Shown here: positions 2,152 to 24,070 of the stretch, one piece after another
Layout of the letters: every line of letters begins with the position of its first letter
Numbering within the stretch: the stretch's first letter is position 1
Origin: a virus
DNA: 36,288 nucleotides
Direction: 5' to 3' (one strand)
Virus record (IMG/VR): IMGVR_UViG_3300041809_001881
Coordinates: 1 to 36,288 of that record
Position numbers and translations under genes: made by a program
The notes under the pieces: model-generated
The model's input: the letters and a program-made list of their open reading frames with translations, nothing else
Told to the model about the DNA's origin: nothing
Databases searched by the model: none

Positions 2152-2361
2152 ATGACCGAGCCCGAACTGCGAAGCGAGATCAAGGCCCTGGCCCCGAACG
2201 TTGAAGTCGACTACGGCGGGCCGGTGCAAACCTACGAAGAGCCGGAAGCGATCGTCCGGGACCCCTGGGGCCAATACCTGTGGAGCCATTACAAAAAAGA
2301 ACACGGGCTGAACGGCACACCGAAAGCGCCTGCATTGCCCGGACAACTGAGCCTGTTTTAA
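2152..2361 (+). CDS. Small acidic protein ending in the sliding-clamp motif QLSLF
   Basis: A 69-residue protein. Its last five residues are QLSLF, an exact match to the consensus pentapeptide QL[SD]LF by which bacterial proteins bind the beta sliding clamp (DnaN). It is placed at the extreme C-terminus after a Pro-rich flexible linker (GTPKAPALPG), a typical arrangement for such tails. The body is acidic (EPELRSEIKALAPNVEVDYG) and resembles no family I know. It sits 2 nt upstream of a FEN-type exonuclease gene and may help bring early proteins to the clamp, or act on the host clamp; both roles are inferred. Confidence 0.7.
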   Translation: MTEPELRSEIKALAPNVEVDYGGPVQTYEEPEAIVRDPWGQYLWSHYKKEHGLNGTPKAPALPGQLSLF

Positions 2362-2363
2362 CC

Positions 2364-3122
2364 ATGAGACTTTTTCTAGGCATCGACGCCAGCAACTGGA
2401 TTTGCTGCCTATGGCACGCGCAGAACGGGCGGGGAGTACTCGACGCCGTCTGCCGCCGGCTGGAAGCCCTGGTCGAGTACCTCGAACCGTCCCACGTCGT
2501 GGCCTGCTTCGATCGCCGCAGCTTTCGCCACGATCTTTATCCCACCTACAAAGCCCACCGCAAACCCAAGCCCGCGGGCCTGCAAGCCGTACTGGACGAA
2601 GGCCCCGCGGCCCTGGGTACGATCGCCGTCCCCTGCGCGGTCGACGGGTACGAAGCGGACGACTGCCTAGCGACCGTCGCCCGCGATGCTATCGCCGCCG
2701 GCAGCCGGGCGGTGATCGCCAGCCCGGACAAGGATCTCAACCAATGCCTCGTCCCCGACCAGGTGACCATCCTGCGGCACTTCATCCTCGGCAACGACGG
2801 CCTGCGGTCGCTGGACTGGTGGAACGCCGCCGCCTTGCAAAAGCACTTCGGCCTGACCCCGGCACAGTGGATCGATTTTCAAACGCTGGTCGGAGACAGC
2901 GGCGACGGCGTGCCAGGCTGCAAGGGGTGGGGCGAAAAGACCACGCTGCCGGCGCTCCAGGCCGCCGGCACGATCGAGGCCATGCTCGCGAACCCCTGGG
3001 CACTGAAGATCAGCCCGAAACAACAGCAGGCATTGCTGGCCTTCCGGCCGCAACTGGACCTGATGCGTCAACTGATCACGTTACGACCGGACGTCCCGGA
3101 GGTTTGGGACGCCCTACGTTAG
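2364..3122 (+). CDS. 5'-3' exonuclease (FEN / Pol I N-terminal domain family)
   Basis: A 252-residue stand-alone flap exonuclease, the size of the Pol I 5'-nuclease domain or T5/T7 exonucleases. Visible motifs: GIDAS with metal ligand Asp8; CFDRRSFRHDLYPTYKAHR at 48-66, the helical-arch region; GYEADD at 95-100 (Glu97, Asp99, Asp100); SPDKDL at 120-125 (Asp122, Asp124); and GDSGDGVPG at 177-185, the metal-binding and helix-three-turn-helix entry. It should remove RNA primers and flaps during phage replication. It follows the QLSLF protein by 2 nt and precedes the initiator, so all three probably form a replication operon. Confidence 0.92.
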   Translation: MRLFLGIDASNWICCLWHAQNGRGVLDAVCRRLEALVEYLEPSHVVACFDRRSFRHDLYPTYKAHRKPKPAGLQAVLDEGPAALGTIAVPCAVDGYEADDCLATVARDAIAAGSRAVIASPDKDLNQCLVPDQVTILRHFILGNDGLRSLDWWNAAALQKHFGLTPAQWIDFQTLVGDSGDGVPGCKGWGEKTTLPALQAAGTIEAMLANPWALKISPKQQQALLAFRPQLDLMRQLITLRPDVPEVWDALR

Positions 3123-6773: not shown

Positions 6774-7601
6774 ATGCGATACCCCGGCGGCAAGAATCAT
6801 GGTTCGAGCTACCCCCGGATCATCAACCAGATCCCGCCGCACCACACCTACATCGAGCCCTTCGCCGGCTCGGCGGCCATCCACCGCATGATGCGGCCCT
6901 CGCAACGCTCGATCCTGATCGACCTATGCCCGGGCGCCCTCGGCAAACTTGCCGAGTGCGCCCGGGCGGGCACCGAACTGCTGCACGCCGATGCCCTGGC
7001 CTGGCTGGAACGCGACCCGCTCTGCCTGCCAGCCCCCAAAGTGCCGACGGTCCTTTATTGCGACCCGCCCTATGTCGCCTCGGCCTGCGCCAGCCGGCTG
7101 CGGTATGAGCACGTTCTGAGCGACGACCAGCATGCTCGGCTGCTCCGCCGATTAAAGCAGCTTCGCTGCTACGTACTGATCAGCGGCTTTTGGTCGGACC
7201 TGTATGCCGATCTGCTGGCCGGCTGGCGAGTGGTCTCCTGGCCGCAGATGACCCGCGGGGCGACCTGGTCCCAGGAGTTCCTGTGGTGCAATTTTCCCGA
7301 GCCGACCGAGCTCCACGACTACCGGTTTTTGGGGACGAACTTTCGCGAGCGACAGGATGTCAAGCGGCAGCAACAGCGGTGGCGGCGGAAGTTGGCCGCC
7401 ATGAGCACGCTCAAGCGGATGGCCCTGATGTCGGTGTTGGCCGATTTGCGACCTGGCCCCATCGGTGAAAATGCCGCGTGGGGCCCCGGGCCAGGGAACC
7501 TCGGCATTTCCGCCGAGCCGGACCGGCACGGCAAAGCTGCCGATGCCGGCAGCCAGCCCGCTCGATCGACCAACGGCAGAAATGCCGATAGCCGCGGCTA
7601 G
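6774..7601 (+). CDS. D12-class DNA adenine N6-methyltransferase (Dam-like)
   Basis: A 275-residue alpha-class adenine methyltransferase. Visible motifs: RYPGGK at 2-7 (motif X), YIEPFAGSAAI at 26-36 (motif I, SAM binding) and CDPPY at 96-100 (catalytic motif IV). It should methylate adenine in a short target such as GATC, protecting phage DNA or altering replication and transcription control. The usual core ends near residue 225 (TLKRMALMSVLADL). The last 45 residues come from a repetitive stretch of ggcagaaatgcc-type motifs and are probably a dispensable tail. No partner endonuclease lies beside it. Confidence 0.9.
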   Translation: MRYPGGKNHGSSYPRIINQIPPHHTYIEPFAGSAAIHRMMRPSQRSILIDLCPGALGKLAECARAGTELLHADALAWLERDPLCLPAPKVPTVLYCDPPYVASACASRLRYEHVLSDDQHARLLRRLKQLRCYVLISGFWSDLYADLLAGWRVVSWPQMTRGATWSQEFLWCNFPEPTELHDYRFLGTNFRERQDVKRQQQRWRRKLAAMSTLKRMALMSVLADLRPGPIGENAAWGPGPGNLGISAEPDRHGKAADAGSQPARSTNGRNADSRG

Positions 7602-14299: not shown

Positions 14300-15133
14300 A
14301 TGTGCGGCGACTCGACCAAGCAAGACCAGGTCGAGGCCCTGCTAAACGGCGTGCGGCCCTTCCTGATGGTCACCGATCCGCCCTACGGGGTCGAGTACCA
14401 GCCCAACTGGCGGAACGAAGCCGCCCGGACCAGCAAGGGCATGGGCAACCGGCACCTCGGCGCAGGCGCCTGCGGTCAGGTGACCAACGATTCTCGCGCC
14501 GGCTGGTCTTCAGCCTACGCCCTGAGCCAGGCCACGGTTGCCTACGTCTGGCACGCGGGCCTGTTCGCCGACGTAGTAATCCAGGGCCTGGAGGCCGCGG
14601 GGTTCGTGCGGCGCTCCCAAATCATTTGGTGGAAGACTCGCTTTGCCATCGGCAGAGGCGACTATCACTGGGGACACGAGCCCTGTTGGTACGCTGTCCG
14701 CCGCGGAGCAAGCGCCGATTACCGCGGGGGCCGAAAGCAAGCGACCAACTGGGGCGAGATCATCGACACCTTCGAGCCCAAAGACCCAGCCATCTACGCA
14801 GCCCGGCTTGACGAGCGGACGATCTACGCCTTCCCAGCCGACTGCCAAACCGTCTGGCAGATCAAGAACGACAAGCAATGCGAAGGGGGCCACAGCACGC
14901 AAAAGCCGCTGGAGTGCATGGCCCGGCCGATACGGAACCACGGCGGCAAGGGAGATGACGTCTACGATCCGTTCTTGGGGACCGGCACAACCATCATGGC
15001 AGCCGAGTCCCTGGGGCGCGTCGCCTTTGGTTGCGAGATCAGCCCGAATTACACCGCCGTGATTTTGCAGCGAGCAAAAGACGCGGGGATGACACCCAAG
15101 CTTACCTCCCTTGCCCCCCCCCCCCCGAAATAA
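14300..15133 (+). CDS. DNA (adenine-N6) methyltransferase, beta-class (N6_N4_Mtase family)
   Basis: A 277-residue protein. DPPYG at 26-30 (motif IV) comes before YDPFLGTGTT at about 222-231 (motif I), the order typical of beta-class enzymes. The DPPY form points to N6-adenine. STQKPLE near 200 is the usual motif X region. The start MCGDST matches the typical internal motif HRLMCGDST of longer ParB-methyltransferase fusions. Here the in-frame upstream codons read ARKGVHRL but hit a stop at 14270, so this looks like a truncated or trimmed form. A 13-C run ends the gene (APPPPK). It lies just before the terminase genes. Confidence 0.85.
   Translation: MCGDSTKQDQVEALLNGVRPFLMVTDPPYGVEYQPNWRNEAARTSKGMGNRHLGAGACGQVTNDSRAGWSSAYALSQATVAYVWHAGLFADVVIQGLEAAGFVRRSQIIWWKTRFAIGRGDYHWGHEPCWYAVRRGASADYRGGRKQATNWGEIIDTFEPKDPAIYAARLDERTIYAFPADCQTVWQIKNDKQCEGGHSTQKPLECMARPIRNHGGKGDDVYDPFLGTGTTIMAAESLGRVAFGCEISPNYTAVILQRAKDAGMTPKLTSLAPPPPK
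15114..15126 (+). repeat. Homopolymer run of thirteen C at the 3' end of the methyltransferase
   Basis: C13 encodes the PPPP before the final Lys and stop. Slippage here would change the last residues and the distance to the next start at 15139. Such tracts are classical phase-variable sites, but they are also prone to sequencing error. Confidence 0.85.
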
Positions 15134-15138
15134 CGTAA

Positions 15139-15606
15139 ATGCCTGTTGCACCGGAAGTCGCCGAGAAGCTGAAGGAGATGCGGAAGCGTCTCCGGGAGGC
15201 AGAGCGCCTGGCGGGAGTTAAGCCTGACTACCGGCAGCCGGCGCAGGAGCCACCGGACGAACCGCAGCAGCCATCCCCGGAAGGCCAACCGCCGAAAACA
15301 GACTTGGTCATCCAGCCGCCGACAACGCCGGCAGGGAAGGCCAACCAGGTGCTGAAGTGGATCGTCAGCGGAGCGAGCGAGTTCGACGTTGCAGAGGCCA
15401 TAGCGACCACGTTTCCCACGGATGACCAGGCCGAACTGCTGTTGGCAGGAATACGGCTGCTCAGGGAAGCCACGGCGATCGACCCGGACACCCTCCGGGC
15501 TTTCTCCTTTGAAGCGACCAGAGACATTTACCGCAAGGCCCTGGAGATCAGCGACTTCCCCACGGCCCTGCGAGCACTCCGACAACTCCAAGACATCGCG
15601 CACTAA
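15139..15606 (+). CDS. Putative terminase small subunit
   Basis: A 155-residue protein directly upstream of the large terminase, overlapping it by TAATG. The N-terminus is a charged helix (EVAEKLKEMRKRLREAERLAG), then a Pro/Gln-rich linker (about 30-65), then a helical domain (about 70-150) starting VLKWIVSGASEFDVAEAI, which could be a helix-turn-helix for pac/cos site recognition. The pattern suits a small terminase but the sequence alone is not diagnostic. If correct, it binds phage DNA and hands it to TerL at the portal. Confidence 0.6.
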   Translation: MPVAPEVAEKLKEMRKRLREAERLAGVKPDYRQPAQEPPDEPQQPSPEGQPPKTDLVIQPPTTPAGKANQVLKWIVSGASEFDVAEAIATTFPTDDQAELLLAGIRLLREATAIDPDTLRAFSFEATRDIYRKALEISDFPTALRALRQLQDIAH

Positions 15607-17795
15607 TGGGCATCTTCACAGCTACCTCCGGAGCCGACGATGACCGCGCTCGAGAGGGAGCCAAAAAGAAAAAGAAGACCAGCGCCGCCCAGAACGCTTA
15701 TCACCAGGCCAAGAGCCGCGACGAACGCGACATCGCTACAAAGTTCAAGTGGGGACCGGCCGATCCCGAGCGACGCGAAGCCTGCCGTCTGGACCTGCGG
15801 CTTTTCCTCGAAACCTACTTTCCCGGCACGTTTCGCCATCCCTTCAGCCCGACCCACCTGAAGCTGATCGAACTGACGCAAAAGGCCATCCTCAACGGCG
15901 GCCTGCACTGTTGCAGTTTTTTCCGCGGGGGAGGAAAGACAAGCGTCTTAGCCCGCGCGGTGCTCTGGGCGATCGCCTACGGACATCGCCGCTACGCCGT
16001 CATCGTCGGGGCAACCGAGGAACTGGCGGGAAAGCTGATGACGAAACACATCCGGAGCGAGTTGACCAAGAAGGAACTATTGGCCGCCGACTTCCCTGAG
16101 CTATGCTCCCCCTTCCAAGCCCTGGAAGGCCACGGCCGCAAGTGCGCAGGCCAAGTCTTCAACGGCGAGGCCACGGGCATCCAGTGGTCCAACAGCGAAC
16201 TAAAGGTCGCCGCCTTCAAATGGTCGATCGAGCGGGGTAACGCGGGCAGCGTCATGCTCGTCAAGAGCATCACCGGCGCGATGAAGGGCCAAACGGACAC
16301 AGCGCCGATCCTGGTGCCGGGCGATCCCGAGCCCACCGTGCTGATCGAGACGATCCGCCCTGACATCCTCTTGCTCGACGACATTCAGACGCGGGAAAGC
16401 GCCAACAGCCCGGTCAGCACAAAGAAGCGAGTGCAGACCGTCCAGGGCGATGCCCTGGGCCTGGCCGGTCACGATCGCAAGATCGCAGCCATCCAAGCGG
16501 TCACCAAGATCTGCGAGAACGACCTGGCCTGCCAGTTCCTCGATCGCGATCGGATGCCGGAGTGGAGGGGCGAAACGACCCGCATGGTCATCACCATGCC
16601 GGAGAAAGAGGAACTCTGGGACGAATACCGGGCCATCCTGCACGACGCCATGCGTACCGACGGCGATGAAAACGCCGCCGCCCGCTTCTACGTGGAGCGC
16701 CGCGAGGAAATGGACCGTGGTGCCGTGATGGCCTGGCCGGAACGGATCCCGGAAGGGTACGTCAGCGCCCTGCAGTACGCGATGGAGCTGAAGTTCCGCG
16801 ACCCGGAGGCCTTCGCCGCGGAATACCAGAACGATCCCCTCAGCAGCCAACTCAGCGCCGGCCTGATGTTGCCGCGCGACGAAATCGCCCGCAAGGTGAA
16901 CGGCCTGAAGCGGGGCATGGTGCCTCAAGAGACCGAATGGCTGACCTGCTTCCTTGACGTCAACGACGCTTACCTGTACTACGCGGTCTGCGCGTGGCAA
17001 AAGGACTTTACTGGGGCCTGCCTCGAGTACGGCGCGTGGCCGGAGCAAAACAAGCGCTACCACACCAAAGCCGACGCGAACCCGACCCTCGCCGCCTACC
17101 TGGCCAAGCAGGAAAAGGCCCTCGCCGGCAGCCCCATCAAGACCCTTCTCGCCGCCGGCCTGGACGAATCTGTCCCCTGGTTGCTTGGCTTGACCTGGAA
17201 GGACGACCAAAACCAGGTCTACGCCATCAAGCGCCTGCTGATCGATACCCGCTATGAGAAGGACGTCGTCTCCGGAGCGATCGAGCGGCTGAAGCAAAAG
17301 GCCGAAAAGACGCCCATCGTCATGCCCAGCATGGGCGTGGGCTACGGAGCCAAGCAGAAACCGATGGCCGAGATCGCCAAGAAGGCCGGCGATCTGACCG
17401 GCTGCCACTGGCGGGCCGCCCAGCCCGACGCCGGCAAACACCGCACGGTCACGATCGACACGAATTACTGGAAAACGACCCTCCATGAACAGCTTGCCGT
17501 GCCCCTGGGGGTCAGCGGCTGCTTTTCGGTCTACGGCACCCCGCGGGCAGACCACAGCATGTTCGCGGACCACTTGACGGCCGAACTCGGCCACCGTGTG
17601 ACCAACGAAACGAAGGGCGAGGAACGCAGGGTCGTCGAGTGGACGCTGAAGCCCAACCGCGAAAACGAGACCCTCGACGCCGTGGTCGGGTGTTTCGTGG
17701 GGGCGTCGATGCTCGGATCCGAACTGACCGGGGCCGGCCGCACAACCAAGCCCTCAAAACGCAAAGCCGATTGGAGTCAATATGCCAAGCTTTAA
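15606..17795 (+). CDS. Terminase large subunit, GpA-like
   Basis: A 729-residue packaging motor. Walker A is at 106-113 (FRGGGKTS) and Walker B at 254-260 (ILLLDDI, with Asp258/Asp259). The following regions (QTVQGDALGLAG, about 282-292; AEYQNDP, about 400-406) match the GpA-type large terminase layout. The C-terminal half, with FLDVND at about 447 and NETLDAVVG at about 685, is the RNase H-like nuclease that cuts DNA during packaging. The length fits GpA-like terminases. It docks on the portal encoded at 19128. The first 45 residues are basic (KKKKK). It overlaps the next gene by 14 nt. Confidence 0.93.
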   Translation: MGIFTATSGADDDRAREGAKKKKKTSAAQNAYHQAKSRDERDIATKFKWGPADPERREACRLDLRLFLETYFPGTFRHPFSPTHLKLIELTQKAILNGGLHCCSFFRGGGKTSVLARAVLWAIAYGHRRYAVIVGATEELAGKLMTKHIRSELTKKELLAADFPELCSPFQALEGHGRKCAGQVFNGEATGIQWSNSELKVAAFKWSIERGNAGSVMLVKSITGAMKGQTDTAPILVPGDPEPTVLIETIRPDILLLDDIQTRESANSPVSTKKRVQTVQGDALGLAGHDRKIAAIQAVTKICENDLACQFLDRDRMPEWRGETTRMVITMPEKEELWDEYRAILHDAMRTDGDENAAARFYVERREEMDRGAVMAWPERIPEGYVSALQYAMELKFRDPEAFAAEYQNDPLSSQLSAGLMLPRDEIARKVNGLKRGMVPQETEWLTCFLDVNDAYLYYAVCAWQKDFTGACLEYGAWPEQNKRYHTKADANPTLAAYLAKQEKALAGSPIKTLLAAGLDESVPWLLGLTWKDDQNQVYAIKRLLIDTRYEKDVVSGAIERLKQKAEKTPIVMPSMGVGYGAKQKPMAEIAKKAGDLTGCHWRAAQPDAGKHRTVTIDTNYWKTTLHEQLAVPLGVSGCFSVYGTPRADHSMFADHLTAELGHRVTNETKGEERRVVEWTLKPNRENETLDAVVGCFVGASMLGSELTGAGRTTKPSKRKADWSQYAKL

Positions 17796-18612: not shown

Positions 18613-18650
18613 GCCCATGCGGGGGCCGCATACCCCCGCATGGGCTTTTT
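18613..18650 (+). terminator. Strong intrinsic terminator ahead of the head genes
   Basis: gcccatgcggggg / cccccgcatgggc form a perfect 13-bp stem with the 7-nt loop ccgcata, followed directly by ttttt (18646-18650). This is a textbook rho-independent terminator. It overlaps the start codon (ATG 18640) of the next gene, so the structural genes would need readthrough, antitermination or a promoter within it. Confidence 0.9.
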
Positions 18651-19131
18651 CGTGGCTCTGACCTTCAAGAAATCGTGGACGGTGAACGGCACCCCGACCG
18701 AGGCCACAAGCGCCACGATCGGGATCTACGACGACACCGCCGGCCTGCAGGTCCTCGCCGCAGGGACCGCGATGGCGAACCCCAGCACGGGGCAGTACTC
18801 CTACGCCTTCACCTCGGCCCTGCCTGAGCACAGCTACACGGCCACGATCGTCGTGACCTACAACGGCCAGACGTACACCTTCACTGCCACGGCCCAGGCC
18901 GCATCGCAAACGAGCGAGCAGGGAGCGGGGGGCAGGGAGCCGGACCTGGAAAAGGCCCTTCGCGAAAACGCCGCCAGCGCCGAGAGCGTGCAATCGGCCG
19001 CCGGCAGCGTCAAGAGCCATCCCATCCCCGACCAGATCCTGGCCGCCGATCGGGAGGCCGTCATGCGTGCCCGCCGCCGCGGTCAGATCGGCGCGCCCCT
19101 CTTCACAATCATGAGCGAGGGACCGCGATGA
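18640..19131 (+). CDS. Ig-like plus gpW-like head protein (head-tail joining candidate)
   Basis: From the ATG at 18640 it has 163 residues. Residues about 5-90 look like an Ig-like beta sandwich (VALTFKKSWTVNGTP... YAFTSALPEHSYTATIVVTY, in parts), similar to BppU-like N-terminal domains. Residues about 105-155 (LEKALRENAASAESV ... IPDQILAADREAVMRARRRG) resemble the small gpW-type head completion region usually found next to a portal. The start lies inside a terminator hairpin; GTG 18652 is an alternative. It overlaps the portal gene by ATGA. A role at the portal or neck is inferred. Confidence 0.55.
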   Translation: MGFFVALTFKKSWTVNGTPTEATSATIGIYDDTAGLQVLAAGTAMANPSTGQYSYAFTSALPEHSYTATIVVTYNGQTYTFTATAQAASQTSEQGAGGREPDLEKALRENAASAESVQSAAGSVKSHPIPDQILAADREAVMRARRRGQIGAPLFTIMSEGPR

Positions 19132-21482
19132 CCTCGATTCTCGATCGCTACGGCAGGCCCTTCGCTCCGGACGAACCGCCGGGTACCCGCGAGCGGGTGG
19201 CGAAGGCCACCCACTACGACATCGCCGACACGAACCGCGAGAACCGCGAGCAATGGCGGGACGCCGATTCCTGGGACGCCGACAAGTGCAACGATCCGCA
19301 GACGCGGCAACTCGCCCGCAACCGCAGCCGGCTCGAAACCGACAACAACCCGAGCTTGAAGGGCAACATCAAGACCCTCGTAAATTACGAGCTGGGGCGT
19401 GGCAGCACGCTGCACGTCGACCACGACAACCAGGACTATGCCCGCGACGTGGAAGAGAACTATGGCCTGTGGCGCGAGGCCACGAACCACGTCGGCAAGT
19501 TCTGGACGATGCTTTACGCCCGGACGCAGGACGGCGAATCCTTCGCGCGGATCGGCCGGAACCCGAACCTGCGACACCCGGAAGACATCGACAAGCCGTT
19601 CCCTGTCCAGTTGGACTGGCAGCCCTTCGAGTGCGATCGCTGTTACACCTACTGGTTGCCGCCGTACACGCCAGGCCGCGTCGACGGGGTGTGGTTCGAT
19701 GACTGGGGCAACGAGACTTACTTCGACATTTTGCGTTATCACCCCGGCGGCGTCTTCCCCCTGGGCGTGATCCAGTACGACACGATCCCCGCGCAGTACA
19801 TCTGCCACCTCTACTTTCCCGAGCGCCCGGGCCAACACCGCGGCGTGCCCGAGTTTGCCAGTTCGATCGGCTTCCTGGGCATCCGCCGCCGCTACACGCT
19901 GGCCACCGTGGAAGCGGCCGAGACGGCAGCCAAGATTGGCGTTTACCTCAAGACCAACAGCCCGCCCGGCATGGAACCTGACGAGGCCGGCCCGCCAATG
20001 GCGATGCGGATCCCGCGCGGTTCGGCCTGGCCGCTGCCGCAAGGCTGGGACATTGCCCAGCCCAAGGCCGAGCAGCCGACCCAGACCTACGAATCGTTCA
20101 GCGAGGTGAGCCTGAACGAGGCCATGCGGCCGAAGTCGATCCCCCGCAACGTCGCGCTGTGCGATTCGTCGAACTACAACATGGCCAGCGGCCGGCTGGA
20201 TATCACCACCCTCTGGGAATCGATCGGCATCGACCAGCGGAACAACACCTGGCGGCTGGAAAATCCGCTGTTTCGCGCGTGGTATGCCGAGGCGCGGCAG
20301 GTCTACAAGACCGAAGGCAAGCGCTGGAGCGACATCGACGGCGGCACCATCCCCAAGCGGATTTTCATGTGGCAACGCGAGCGCTACAGCGACCCGGAGG
20401 TCCAGCAGGGAGCCGACGCCGAGGCCGTGCAGACCGGTTTGCGGGGAATCCAAGACATCTACGCCGACCGCGGCCTAGACTGGAGCCGGCAGCAAGTTCT
20501 CAACGCCAAGAACCTGGGGTTCAAAGACCAGCCCGGCAAGACGGCCGTGGAGCAATACCTGGAGTGGACCCGCGGCAATCTCACGATCGCCAAGGGTGGC
20601 ACGGCAACGCCACCCGCCAAACCGAAAGAGAACGATGCTAATTCTGCCGCCGATACTTCCGATCCCGACGCCAATGCCGATCCCGCCGCAGCCGCGGCCG
20701 CCGATCCCAAGGCCGTAGAGCAGGCAGCCAACGAATCGGCGAAGGCCGCCGCCCGCGCGGCGCTCGGTCCCGATCTTGCCAAGCTGTTTCCCGGCCTGGC
20801 CAGCCGCCTGAACGGGCACAACGGCCGCCGCAAGGCCAAAGCCGCGGCATCGCTCATTTCCGGCGTGCCCGATATCCGCCAAGACACCGATTACCGTTGC
20901 GGCGCGGCTGCCAGCATGGCCGTGGGCCGGTTCTTTGGAGTCGGCCCCGAAACGCTCGACGAGTGGAGCGAGGCCCTCGGCACCACGGCCGCCAAATCGA
21001 CCAGCCCCGATGCCATCGTCTCCTACCTTTCGGCCCTCGGCCTGGAAGTCAACGCCCGGCAGAACATGAGCGTCGATGACCTGGCTTACGAGACCCGCGA
21101 GGGACGGCCCGTCATTGTGTGCTGCCAGGACTACGTCGCGCAGAACAGCGACCCGCGCGACGAGGCCGCGGAGTGGGACTACGGGCACTGGATGGTCTGT
21201 CTGGCCGTGCAGACGATCGGCGACACCCGCTTCCTGATTTTTCAGGATTCGTCAGAGGAAAACATGGAGCGCCTGCCCGGCGGCGACGTGCCCAAGGCAG
21301 ACGAGGATCCCGAAATGGTCGTGGAGGAACCGGGCCGCCGCTTCGTCTCTGAGAAGCGCTGGCTCCCGGCCTGGCACGACGAAGCGGTCAACGGACTGCT
21401 CTTCGATCACTACGGCATCGCGGTCGGTTTGCCGGAAACAGCGACACCGTCCGCGGCACTCTTGGAGGATCTAGCCCAATGA
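19128..21482 (+). CDS. Phage portal protein fused to a C39-like cysteine peptidase domain
   Basis: A 784-residue protein; lambda-type portals are about 530. Residues about 1-510 are a lambda-like portal (NPSLKGNIKTLVNYELG near 77; FPERPGQHRGVPEFASSI near 232-249), the dodecameric channel for DNA entry. After an Ala/Asp-rich linker (about 515-575) comes a C39-like peptidase: VPDIRQDTDYRCGAAAS with Gln585 and Cys591, GHWMV with His687, and FQDSS with Asp707, a complete Cys-His-Asp triad. C39-family enzymes cleave double-Gly-type leaders or other peptides. The tail after about 715 is unrecognised. The gene overlaps the capsid gene by 4 nt (ATGA). I find no frameshift separating the two halves. 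Confidence 0.88.
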   Translation: MTSILDRYGRPFAPDEPPGTRERVAKATHYDIADTNRENREQWRDADSWDADKCNDPQTRQLARNRSRLETDNNPSLKGNIKTLVNYELGRGSTLHVDHDNQDYARDVEENYGLWREATNHVGKFWTMLYARTQDGESFARIGRNPNLRHPEDIDKPFPVQLDWQPFECDRCYTYWLPPYTPGRVDGVWFDDWGNETYFDILRYHPGGVFPLGVIQYDTIPAQYICHLYFPERPGQHRGVPEFASSIGFLGIRRRYTLATVEAAETAAKIGVYLKTNSPPGMEPDEAGPPMAMRIPRGSAWPLPQGWDIAQPKAEQPTQTYESFSEVSLNEAMRPKSIPRNVALCDSSNYNMASGRLDITTLWESIGIDQRNNTWRLENPLFRAWYAEARQVYKTEGKRWSDIDGGTIPKRIFMWQRERYSDPEVQQGADAEAVQTGLRGIQDIYADRGLDWSRQQVLNAKNLGFKDQPGKTAVEQYLEWTRGNLTIAKGGTATPPAKPKENDANSAADTSDPDANADPAAAAAADPKAVEQAANESAKAAARAALGPDLAKLFPGLASRLNGHNGRRKAKAAASLISGVPDIRQDTDYRCGAAASMAVGRFFGVGPETLDEWSEALGTTAAKSTSPDAIVSYLSALGLEVNARQNMSVDDLAYETREGRPVIVCCQDYVAQNSDPRDEAAEWDYGHWMVCLAVQTIGDTRFLIFQDSSEENMERLPGGDVPKADEDPEMVVEEPGRRFVSEKRWLPAWHDEAVNGLLFDHYGIAVGLPETATPSAALLEDLAQ

Positions 21483-24070
21483 GCAAGCAATCCCGCCGCC
21501 GCCTGGCGGCCAAACGACTGGCAACGGCCGAGGCCGTCCCCGTGGCAGCCGCCACCGATGCCTATTTGCCGACTTCGGCGGAACACGCGGCCTGGATCAC
21601 CAAGACGCCGGAGAAGTTCCTGCACGCCAGCTTCAAGAGCGAGGCCGTCGCGGAAGGCATCCGCTGTGTTACCGCCGAGTTGCGGGAAGATCCCGGCCAG
21701 CGCGAAGCGATGGCCTATCACTTCGACCAGACCAAGTTCACGCAGATGGAAGCGCAGGCCTGGTGTACGGCCAAGGGCCTGATGGTTGCCGACTTCGTGC
21801 CCAGCAAGGAAACGAACTATCCGCAAGTGACGGCACACGCCCCGCGGGAAGTCACGATCTACGAAGGCACGGCCCGCATCGTCCGCGCAGCCGGGAAGTT
21901 GCCGCGGATCACCATCGACCCGCTGTACAGCGGCGGCGACTTGAATCTCGACGGCCACCCGTTCCCCCTCGTAATCGAGATCTCCGGCATCGAGCTGGAC
22001 CCGCCCACGTCGATCCTCTACGCGCACGATGACAAAGAGCCCGTGGGCGAAGGCCGCGCGGTCGTCGCGCACGGCGTGCTGTCGATCGTCGACGGCACGG
22101 TCACGGGCACGGGCGCACAGGCCAAGCGGGTCGTTGCCGACGCCGCCAATGGCTACACCTGGCGGGGTTCGCTGGGGGCCGAAGTCATCGGCGACATCGT
22201 TTTCATCCCGCCCGGTCAAACCCTTCAGGCCAACGGCCGGCAATTCACCGGCCCGCTGGAGTACTGGCCCCACTCCCGACTCAAAGAAGCTTCAGTGCTC
22301 GGCAACGGAGCCGACCACACCTCGCGAGTGTCGATTGCCGCGCACGCGAAAACCCCTGTTTTTCATTCCACCCCCAGGAGTCCACAGAAAATGGAACCCG
22401 AATTCGTTCAGTGGGTCAAGGAAACCTTTGACCTCGACGCGCCGGCACTTGCGGAAGCCACCCAACGCAAGATGCAGGCCGCATGGCAGAAACACCAGAC
22501 GGTCACCAGCAAGGGCGCGGACCTCAACGCCGCCATCGACGCCGCCCTGGCCCAAGTCGGCCCCCGCGCCGCCCAGGCCGCCGCCCAGGCCGCCGCCCAG
22601 GCCAACGAGCGCGTGGCGAAGGCTTACGACCTCTGCAAGCGCGTCCACAACACCTGGAAACTCGACCAGGAGCAACACCGCACCGTCCGGGCGCAAGCCA
22701 CCGAGATGCGGGACAAAGCGATCGCCGAGAGTTGGACGGCCGACAAGATCGAGCTGGAAATGCTCCGGCTGGGCATGCCGACCAACACGGTCACCAGCGG
22801 CGGCACGGAAAGCGCCGCCGTGAGCAACGCCCTCCTGGAGGCCAGCTTTGCCCGCGCCACGGGTTGCCTGAAGGATTTTGATAAGCAGTACTCGCCGCAA
22901 GTGCTCGAAGCCCTCGACAAGAATGACGATCTCCGTCGCGGCATCACCTTGAAGGGGCTCATCGTCCGCACGGCAACCGCGCACGGCTTCACCGGCCGCT
23001 ACATCGAGGCCGGCCCGGGCGCAAACGCCACCATTCACGAGTGCCTCGACCGCTCCTATCACGGCGCGCCGCGGTACGCCAAGGCCGCGGACAGCACGAT
23101 CAGCCTGCCGGGCATCATGTCGAACCTCGCGCAGAAGTTCCTTTACCAGGGCTTCTGGGGCATCGACCCGTCGTGGCGGATGGTTTCGTTCACCCGCAGC
23201 GTGACCGACTTCAAGCCCACGCCGGCCTTCCGGATCTTCGGCGCGACGACCTTCGAAAAGCTGGGCCCGCACGGCGAGATCAAGCACGGCATCCTCGGCG
23301 AGACGGCCTACAGCAACCGCGCTGAGCTGTACGCCAAGATGCTCACGACCAGCTTCGAGGACATCCGCAACGATGACCTCGGGGCCCTGAGCTTCGTGCC
23401 CCAGGCCCTGGGCCGCGGTGCCGCCCTCGGCTTGCTCGACGTGTTCTACACGATGGTCCTGTCGGGGAAGGATTTCTTCGGCAACGCCATGTACTACGCG
23501 GCCAGCGGCAAGGACGGCAAGGGGCAGACCATCAACGTGAACAAGTTCACGGGGGCCGGTTCCTCGATCGCCCTGGGCGCGTCGAACCCGATCGGTGCCC
23601 TGAGCCAGTCCCGCCAGGCCTTCCGCCAGCAGGTCGGCCCGGACGGAAAGCTGATGGGCTACGCCCCGCAGTTGATCTTCGTGCCGCCGGCGCTCGAAAC
23701 CGCGGCCGAGAACGCCATGAAGGCCACCGAGCTGCGGCAGATCGCCACGGGCCAGGGTGACAGCGCCGCGAGTCAGACCTACATGACGCGCAACCCCTTC
23801 GAAAACGCGTACAAGATCGTCGTCTCGCCGTATATCGGCACGAACAACAACCCGGCCGGCACCACGGGCAGCGATACCGCCTGGTATCACCTGGGCGACA
23901 AGGGCCAAGTGCCCGTCTGGGAACTCTTGTTCCTCGACGGCAACCAAGCCCCCGTGATCGAGTCCAGCCAGATGGAGTTCACCCGCCTCGGCCTGGTCCA
24001 CCGCGGCTACCACGCCTACGGCGCGGGTGCCGTGGAGCCCCGCGGCGTCGTTTACAACACCGGCGTCTGA
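21479..24070 (+). CDS. Prohead protease-scaffold-major capsid polyprotein (Mu gpT-like capsid)
   Basis: An 863-residue fusion. Residues about 60-300 look like a phage prohead protease (EGRAVVAHGVLSIVDG; GYTWRGSLGAEV; NGRQFTGPLEYW). Residues about 305-450 are Ala/Gln-rich and helical (AAQAAAQAAAQANERVAKAY), as expected of scaffold. Residues about 455-863 resemble Mu gpT-type major capsid protein (FEKLGPHGEIKHGILGE; FEDIRNDDLGAL; ALGRGAALGLLDV). An internal start at ATG 22391, with aggag 10 nt before, could make a protease-free scaffold-capsid product (560 aa). The mature capsid presumably arises by proteolysis. The domain order is clear; processing is inferred. Confidence 0.85.
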   Translation: MSKQSRRRLAAKRLATAEAVPVAAATDAYLPTSAEHAAWITKTPEKFLHASFKSEAVAEGIRCVTAELREDPGQREAMAYHFDQTKFTQMEAQAWCTAKGLMVADFVPSKETNYPQVTAHAPREVTIYEGTARIVRAAGKLPRITIDPLYSGGDLNLDGHPFPLVIEISGIELDPPTSILYAHDDKEPVGEGRAVVAHGVLSIVDGTVTGTGAQAKRVVADAANGYTWRGSLGAEVIGDIVFIPPGQTLQANGRQFTGPLEYWPHSRLKEASVLGNGADHTSRVSIAAHAKTPVFHSTPRSPQKMEPEFVQWVKETFDLDAPALAEATQRKMQAAWQKHQTVTSKGADLNAAIDAALAQVGPRAAQAAAQAAAQANERVAKAYDLCKRVHNTWKLDQEQHRTVRAQATEMRDKAIAESWTADKIELEMLRLGMPTNTVTSGGTESAAVSNALLEASFARATGCLKDFDKQYSPQVLEALDKNDDLRRGITLKGLIVRTATAHGFTGRYIEAGPGANATIHECLDRSYHGAPRYAKAADSTISLPGIMSNLAQKFLYQGFWGIDPSWRMVSFTRSVTDFKPTPAFRIFGATTFEKLGPHGEIKHGILGETAYSNRAELYAKMLTTSFEDIRNDDLGALSFVPQALGRGAALGLLDVFYTMVLSGKDFFGNAMYYAASGKDGKGQTINVNKFTGAGSSIALGASNPIGALSQSRQAFRQQVGPDGKLMGYAPQLIFVPPALETAAENAMKATELRQIATGQGDSAASQTYMTRNPFENAYKIVVSPYIGTNNNPAGTTGSDTAWYHLGDKGQVPVWELLFLDGNQAPVIESSQMEFTRLGLVHRGYHAYGAGAVEPRGVVYNTGV
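22376..22393 (+). promoter_or_regulatory. Internal ribosome site and start inside the capsid polyprotein
   Basis: aggag (22376-22380) precedes the in-frame ATG 22391 (codon 305). It lies exactly at the junction of the protease and scaffold domains. Lambda C/Nu3 and Mu I/Z use the same in-frame internal start to make scaffold. Confidence 0.55.

Follow-up and report, generated by a model that had tools for sequence, protein, structure and literature searches.

Enzymatic domains on head proteins of the phage portal vertex have been described in several systems. Fusions of portal or MuF proteins to PBECR, 2H, Nudix and ART domains have been reported as effectors that are packaged and then injected (PMC5512222; PMC9503650), and for polyvalent proteins four peptidase superfamilies have been named, none of which is papain-like (PMC5512222, main text). 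In the MuF polymorphic toxins of temperate phages, a protein of the portal vertex carries a variable C-terminal enzyme, metallopeptidases included (PMC5576092). In the giant phage SPN3US, the portal and the ejection proteins are cut at a common motif by the prohead protease (PMC5694885).

Here we describe a portal gene in a viral stretch of 36,288 nucleotides (IMG/VR record IMGVR_UViG_3300041809_001881; hereafter the window) that continues in frame into a C39-like cysteine peptidase domain. The features of the head module described below are all on the plus strand.

The fusion gene and its head module

The fusion gene (19128..21482) encodes 784 residues in one open frame with 0 internal stops, with matches to PF05136 and phrog_21, and is conserved in the related contigs L001-L005 and L008. 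The portal core covers residues 1 to about 493 (19128..20606) and contains a match to the lambda-type portal family Phage_portal_2 (PF05136) at residues 43-366, with an E value of 7.9e-33 and 114.5 bits against a curated cut-off of 32.9; the match to the portal family phrog_21 spans residues 3-547. The core is followed by an Ala/Asp-rich, poorly conserved linker (residues 494-573, 20607..20846; dN/dS 0.5-1.1 between the window and its relatives), and then by the C39-like domain (residues 574-784, 20847..21479). At the end of the core, Gly490-Gly491 (20595-20600) is invariant in the fusion alignment and is retained in relatives whether or not they have C39.

A previous reading of the sequence only had proposed this arrangement of portal, linker and peptidase in one frame, and the arrangement is borne out by other contigs. 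An 11.9-kb stretch of a second contig is 100% identical to the window and holds the same fusion, and five further contigs carry it in frame as well (L002-L005, 59-61% identity in the alignment; L008, 48%), which excludes a frameshift or misassembly as its origin. Furthermore, there is no break in GC or GC3 at the portal/C39 junction.

The fusion gene is flanked by the terminase large subunit gene (15606..17795; phrog_38, 1.2e-34; PF20454) and by a protease/capsid gene (21479..24070), and the relatives show the same order. The small gene directly upstream of the portal (18640..19131) has tblastn matches in L002, L003, L008, L011 and L012 and no family match in Pfam or PHROG; judged by position only, it is possibly a gpW-like connector. 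It looks composite, its C-terminal part being common to the small connector-like genes of all relatives and its N-terminal part being found in L002 and L003 only. An integrase gene at 18-1262 (phrog_1, 4e-17) indicates that the phage is probably temperate, which fits the report of MuF toxins in temperate phages (PMC5576092). The 36-kb contig also has two DNA methyltransferase genes (14300-15133 and 6774-7601) and an exonuclease gene (2280-3122).

The C39-like domain and its carriers

The assignment of the C-terminal domain is based on Pfam, the predicted fold and conserved residues. The profile search suggested by the sequence-only reading was clear for the portal and sub-threshold for the peptidase in the window itself, where PF13529 scored 16.8 bits (cut-off 24); homologous domains in L008 (27.1 bits), L038 (37.2), L040 (28.8), L043 (30.9) and L042 (33.5) pass it. 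The C39 catalytic set, Gln585 (20880-20882), Cys591 in RCGAAAS (20898-20900), His687 in GHWMV (21186-21188) and Asp707 in FQDSS (21246-21248), was found exactly at the residues that the reading had named. All 22 homologues compared, unrelated carriers included, have the same Cys, His and Asp, and all 21 that cover its position have the oxyanion Gln. An AlphaFold2 model built from an eight-sequence alignment (pLDDT 74, pTM 0.78) matches the C39 peptidases of PCAT1 and ComA, PeiR, staphopains and a CdiA-CT toxin, with best Z scores of 17-18; as modelled, the C-terminal domain is a papain-like fold of C39 type, in line with the earlier expectation. A chance match of the catalytic motifs was rejected on the basis of this predicted fold and of the residue conservation. 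Pfam found no ABC transporter domain in the fusion protein, which is thus not a peptidase-containing transporter.

Between the window and L002-L004 the C39 domain is 81-82% identical, with a dN/dS of 0.11-0.13, and the portal core 53-55% identical, with a dN/dS of 0.35-0.44. No other part of the protein is as constrained as the C39 domain, which is under purifying selection. Recent acquisition as the cause of its high identity is unsupported, since dS in the C39 domain (1.2-1.25) is as high as in the portal core (0.96-1.2). The score below the Pfam cut-off would suit an inactive remnant, or a binding domain that keeps the papain-like fold and has lost catalysis, but the identity of the three catalytic residues across unrelated carriers and a dN/dS of about 0.12 make this extremely improbable.

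What stands at the C-terminus of the portal differs among close relatives. The L009 portal ends shortly after the core and the L010 portal a few residues past an LKA motif, both without C39; L011 has another tail in place of C39, with no convincing Pfam match, and L012 and L013 have an LPD3 polyvalent-protein domain (PF18798, 1.3e-14). The L011 tail (L011:9381-10169) shows a D...ExK pattern, for which a PD-(D/E)xK nuclease is possible, and the LPD3 domain at L012:9159-10115 stands after an RRLRAGVV site. In the portal tree, the C39-bearing L002/L003 are sister to the C39-less L010-L012 (support 100/99), and well-supported branches require the C39 label to have switched three times or more, although one of these switches may stem from the very long branch of L041. 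In the C39 tree the L008 domain falls outside the clade that holds the domain of the window (96/92), although the two portals are close. Since sister portals have nothing, LPD3, another tail or C39 at the same place, the C39 domain is a mobile cargo on the portal C-terminus.

The domain was also found on other carriers. The search for other portals with C39, as advised by the sequence-only reading, gave, besides the relatives named above, an additional lambda-type portal (L041) and HK97-type portals (L040, L048, L050 and L053), one more of the HK97 type being combined with both C39 and MuF (L037). MuF is joined to C39 in L043, whose sequence around the junction is shared by L044 and L045, and multi-domain MuF proteins with C39 occur in L046, L051 and L052; in L038, C39 lies in a polyvalent protein of 2291 residues with ART-PolyVal, MuF and ADPrib_exo_Tox domains. 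PF04233 (MuF) is present in L037, L038, L043, L046, L051 and L052. In L036, C39 is encoded by a gene of its own, which follows the genes for a Mu-type portal and MuF. One peptidase domain is thus paired with three portal families (lambda-, HK97- and Mu-type).

Intein-like insertions were seen near the C39/MuF domain at L054:3824-7498, L056:6020-9937 and L052:6200-9775, with weak PF14890 matches in L054 and L052; the insert in L054 ends just before the catalytic Cys. A frame of 876 residues with a ferritin-like match (PF00210, 1e-6), at L049:1141-3771, also has a C39-like domain close to its start. At the sensitivity of tblastn, 50,697 records of cultured phages gave no portal-C39 fusion and only distant matches to C39, and no relatives were found in plasmids or in a pattern scan of bacterial genome contigs. 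Synechococcus phages have distant homologues of C39 that bear lysozyme or endolysin annotations (L061, S-CBS1 gp24; L062, S-CBP2_0045).

These annotations, together with the presence of the pseudomurein endoisopeptidase PeiR among the best fold matches, would suit a cell-wall entry enzyme, by which C39, attached or released, cuts cross-links of the host wall for DNA passage in the manner of virion-associated lysins. However, the lysozyme and endolysin annotations are putative, the fold matches peptide-cutting C39 enzymes and toxins equally well, the companions of the domain in polyvalent proteins are ADP-ribosyltransferases, which have cytosolic targets, and no wall-binding domain was found. 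We consider this role unlikely, though the least unlikely of the alternatives weighed here.

The sequence-only reading had offered two ideas for the function of the peptidase, trimming of scaffold or capsid and ejection into the host. The second is the better one, since C39 turns up again in MuF and polyvalent settings and the portals of sister phages bear other cargo. Trimming is unlikely, as the next gene already supplies a probable assemblin-like protease on the capsid protein, C39 is absent from close sisters that share the head module, and it is present on portals of unrelated families.

The predicted cleavage site and the neighbouring protease

The gene after the portal (21479..24070) encodes a protease-scaffold-major capsid polyprotein of 863 residues, with matches to PF25209 (residues 534-859, 8.5e-36), to phrog_4523 (major head and protease protein) and to NF045541 (prohead protease/MCP fusion; residues 268-862). 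It is likely to comprise both the processing enzyme and its main substrate. Residues 139-288 (21893..22342) were assigned to an assemblin-like protease domain by fold match and invariant residues: His183 (22025-22027) and Ser231 (22169-22171), a candidate catalytic pair, are invariant in seven sequences, and the model of this region (pLDDT 72.5, pTM 0.50) has herpesvirus assemblins in all of its top 24 rows, with Z scores of 5.7-8.1, the next unrelated row being at 5.2. Foldseek alone gave no significant match for the same model, and there was no sequence match to Peptidase_S78 or to solved proteases in Pfam, PDB sequences or hhalign, for which the alignments were shallow. From the model, we regard this domain, with moderate confidence, as a candidate assemblin-like prohead protease.

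Assemblin-type sites have Ala before the cut. The scaffold/capsid junctions of nine genomes resemble them, having mostly a hydrophobic residue or Ala, then a mostly polar residue, then Ala; in the window the junction reads RYAKA↓ADS (23072..23095; the arrow marks the cut). A search of the literature for an assemblin site consensus yielded nothing useful. A plain count of the site motif showed no enrichment in portals, so that position alone is informative, and we therefore used a profile built from the scaffold/capsid junctions only, never from portals, with the tested genome left out. This profile placed the position before the cargo at rank 1 among the 687-777 portal positions in the window, L002, L004, L008 and L012, and at rank 2 in L003. 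In the window, the highest-ranking of the 777 positions is RKAKA↓AAS, with the cut predicted after Ala572 (20829..20852). Against shuffled linkers, the p-values were 0.0045 for the window, <0.0005 for L002, 0.008 for L004, 0.004 for L008, 0.04 for L012 and 0.02 for L003; as the six genomes are related, these values are not independent and are not to be multiplied. In L011 and L041 the profile did not pick the cargo boundary. The cleavage site before C39 is thus a predicted one, supported statistically.

A tentative second site, VAKA↓THYDI, lies near the portal N-terminus (19197..19220). Its pattern (R/K)A(S/T)HYDI is kept in relatives, but the junction profile gives it no high rank. The portal as modelled in the lambda virion structure lacks its 23 N-terminal residues (PMC10721106).

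The predicted site just before C39, which was absent from the sequence-only reading, suggests that the peptidases may come off the portal ring. If they stayed on it, C39 would play a structural or regulatory role at the DNA channel, attached to the crown, and the linker is long enough to keep it clear of the channel. This is very unlikely in view of the site predicted at the domain boundary, the catalytic residues kept in all homologues and the recurrence of the domain beside other effector domains.

The domain could also act in the head itself, either by cutting the portal linker, for instance near Gly490-Gly491, and so releasing itself, or by trimming scaffold and capsid as a maturation protease. 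C39 peptidases of transporters cut after a double glycine, and this preference of the family is in keeping with a Gly pair that no aligned fusion lacks. Self-processing peptidases are, moreover, often contained in polyvalent proteins (PMC5512222). On the other hand, the Gly pair is retained in the C39-less L009, L010 and L012, phages without C39 have a working head module of this kind, the capsid protein already comes with a probable assemblin-like protease, and C39 also occurs in unfused or MuF settings. We judge such a role to be quite improbable, though less so than a domain that remains attached or inactive.

The release-and-ejection model and its relation to known systems

We propose that the portal C-terminus serves as a slot for cargo, turned towards the inside of the capsid and occupied here by a C39-like cysteine peptidase. 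The sequence-only reading had placed this end of the protein inside the capsid, and in the lambda portal structure the C-terminal domain is indeed the crown (PMC10721106). About 12 C39 copies would be carried automatically into each prohead on the crown of the portal ring. During head maturation, the assemblin-like prohead protease would cut after Ala572, where the sequence is of the kind found at the scaffold/capsid junction. The portal would thereby be reduced to the usual length, and peptidases of about 23 kDa would be free inside the head. When the DNA exits, they would go out with it and, as early effectors or counter-defence factors, cleave some protein or peptide in the cell just infected or in its envelope. 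As a target, proteolysis of a host or defence protein is our first choice, and a role at the cell wall the second.

The exchange of cargo among sister portals and the recurrence of C39 on HK97-type portal, MuF and polyvalent carriers support this model. So do the ranks of the site before the cargo, together with the assemblin-like fold next door and its invariant His and Ser, and so do the low dN/dS of the C39 domain, its universal catalytic residues, the integrase and the published precedents (PMC5512222; PMC9503650; PMC5694885). It is weakened by the profile missing L011 and L041, by the relatedness of the genomes, by the moderate fold match of the protease and by the fact that no immunity gene was recognised near the portal, as well as by the lysozyme and endolysin labels of the cyanophage homologues, which would suit a wall enzyme. 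The actual cleavage, the ejection, the catalytic activity and the target of C39 are inferred, and we regard the model as a whole, in which the prohead protease frees about 12 C39 peptidases for ejection with the DNA as effectors, as reasonably probable. Whether it describes a general delivery device, a polymorphic crown slot that provides twelve enzymes per virion by ring symmetry and is emptied by the phage's own assemblin-type protease, with C39 as an unrecognised class of injected effectors in phages with lambda-, HK97- and Mu-type portals, seems to us an evenly balanced question.

If the model is true, a fixed enzyme dose would be loaded per virion without a separate packaging signal, and a cysteine peptidase domain of three portal families would join the likely injected anti-host or counter-defence effectors. 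The model predicts a testable site and protease. The site rule is also a route to further injected effectors, because cargo could be read from portal C-termini after such sites.

The sequence-only reading had held that portals, usually of about 500-550 residues, are not known to carry a protease. Text searches, which covered main texts, mostly from outside the subscription journals, brought up no portal or MuF protein fused to C39, so that C39 as portal cargo appears to be new; as a class, however, portal-effector fusions are already known (PMC5512222; PMC9503650). Like these portal- and MuF-fused effectors, the window has an enzyme domain on a head protein at the portal vertex, and the variable domain (none, LPD3, another tail or C39) is exchanged among related carriers. 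It differs from them in that its cargo is C39/papain-like, outside the four named peptidase superfamilies, and in its predicted site for release by the prohead protease. The link to polyvalent proteins is given by the LPD3 domain of sister portals and by the same C39 in the polyvalent protein with ART-PolyVal and MuF (L038); polyvalent proteins in the strict sense have at least two effector domains, as L038 does, whereas the window protein has only one besides the portal. In comparison with MuF toxins, the window protein is without a MuF domain (no PF04233), the carrier is the portal itself and no immunity gene was recognised. The window domain agrees with the C39 domains of PCAT1 and ComA in fold (Z 17-18, rmsd about 2) and in its set of Gln, Cys, His and Asp, but it is 16-21% identical to them and has no ABC transporter. 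PeiR, at 15-18% identity, is likewise papain-like in fold (Z about 17) and comparable in size, and it is not fused to a portal. Finally, in SPN3US it is an N-terminal propeptide that is removed from the portal, whereas in the window the C-terminal cargo would be freed.
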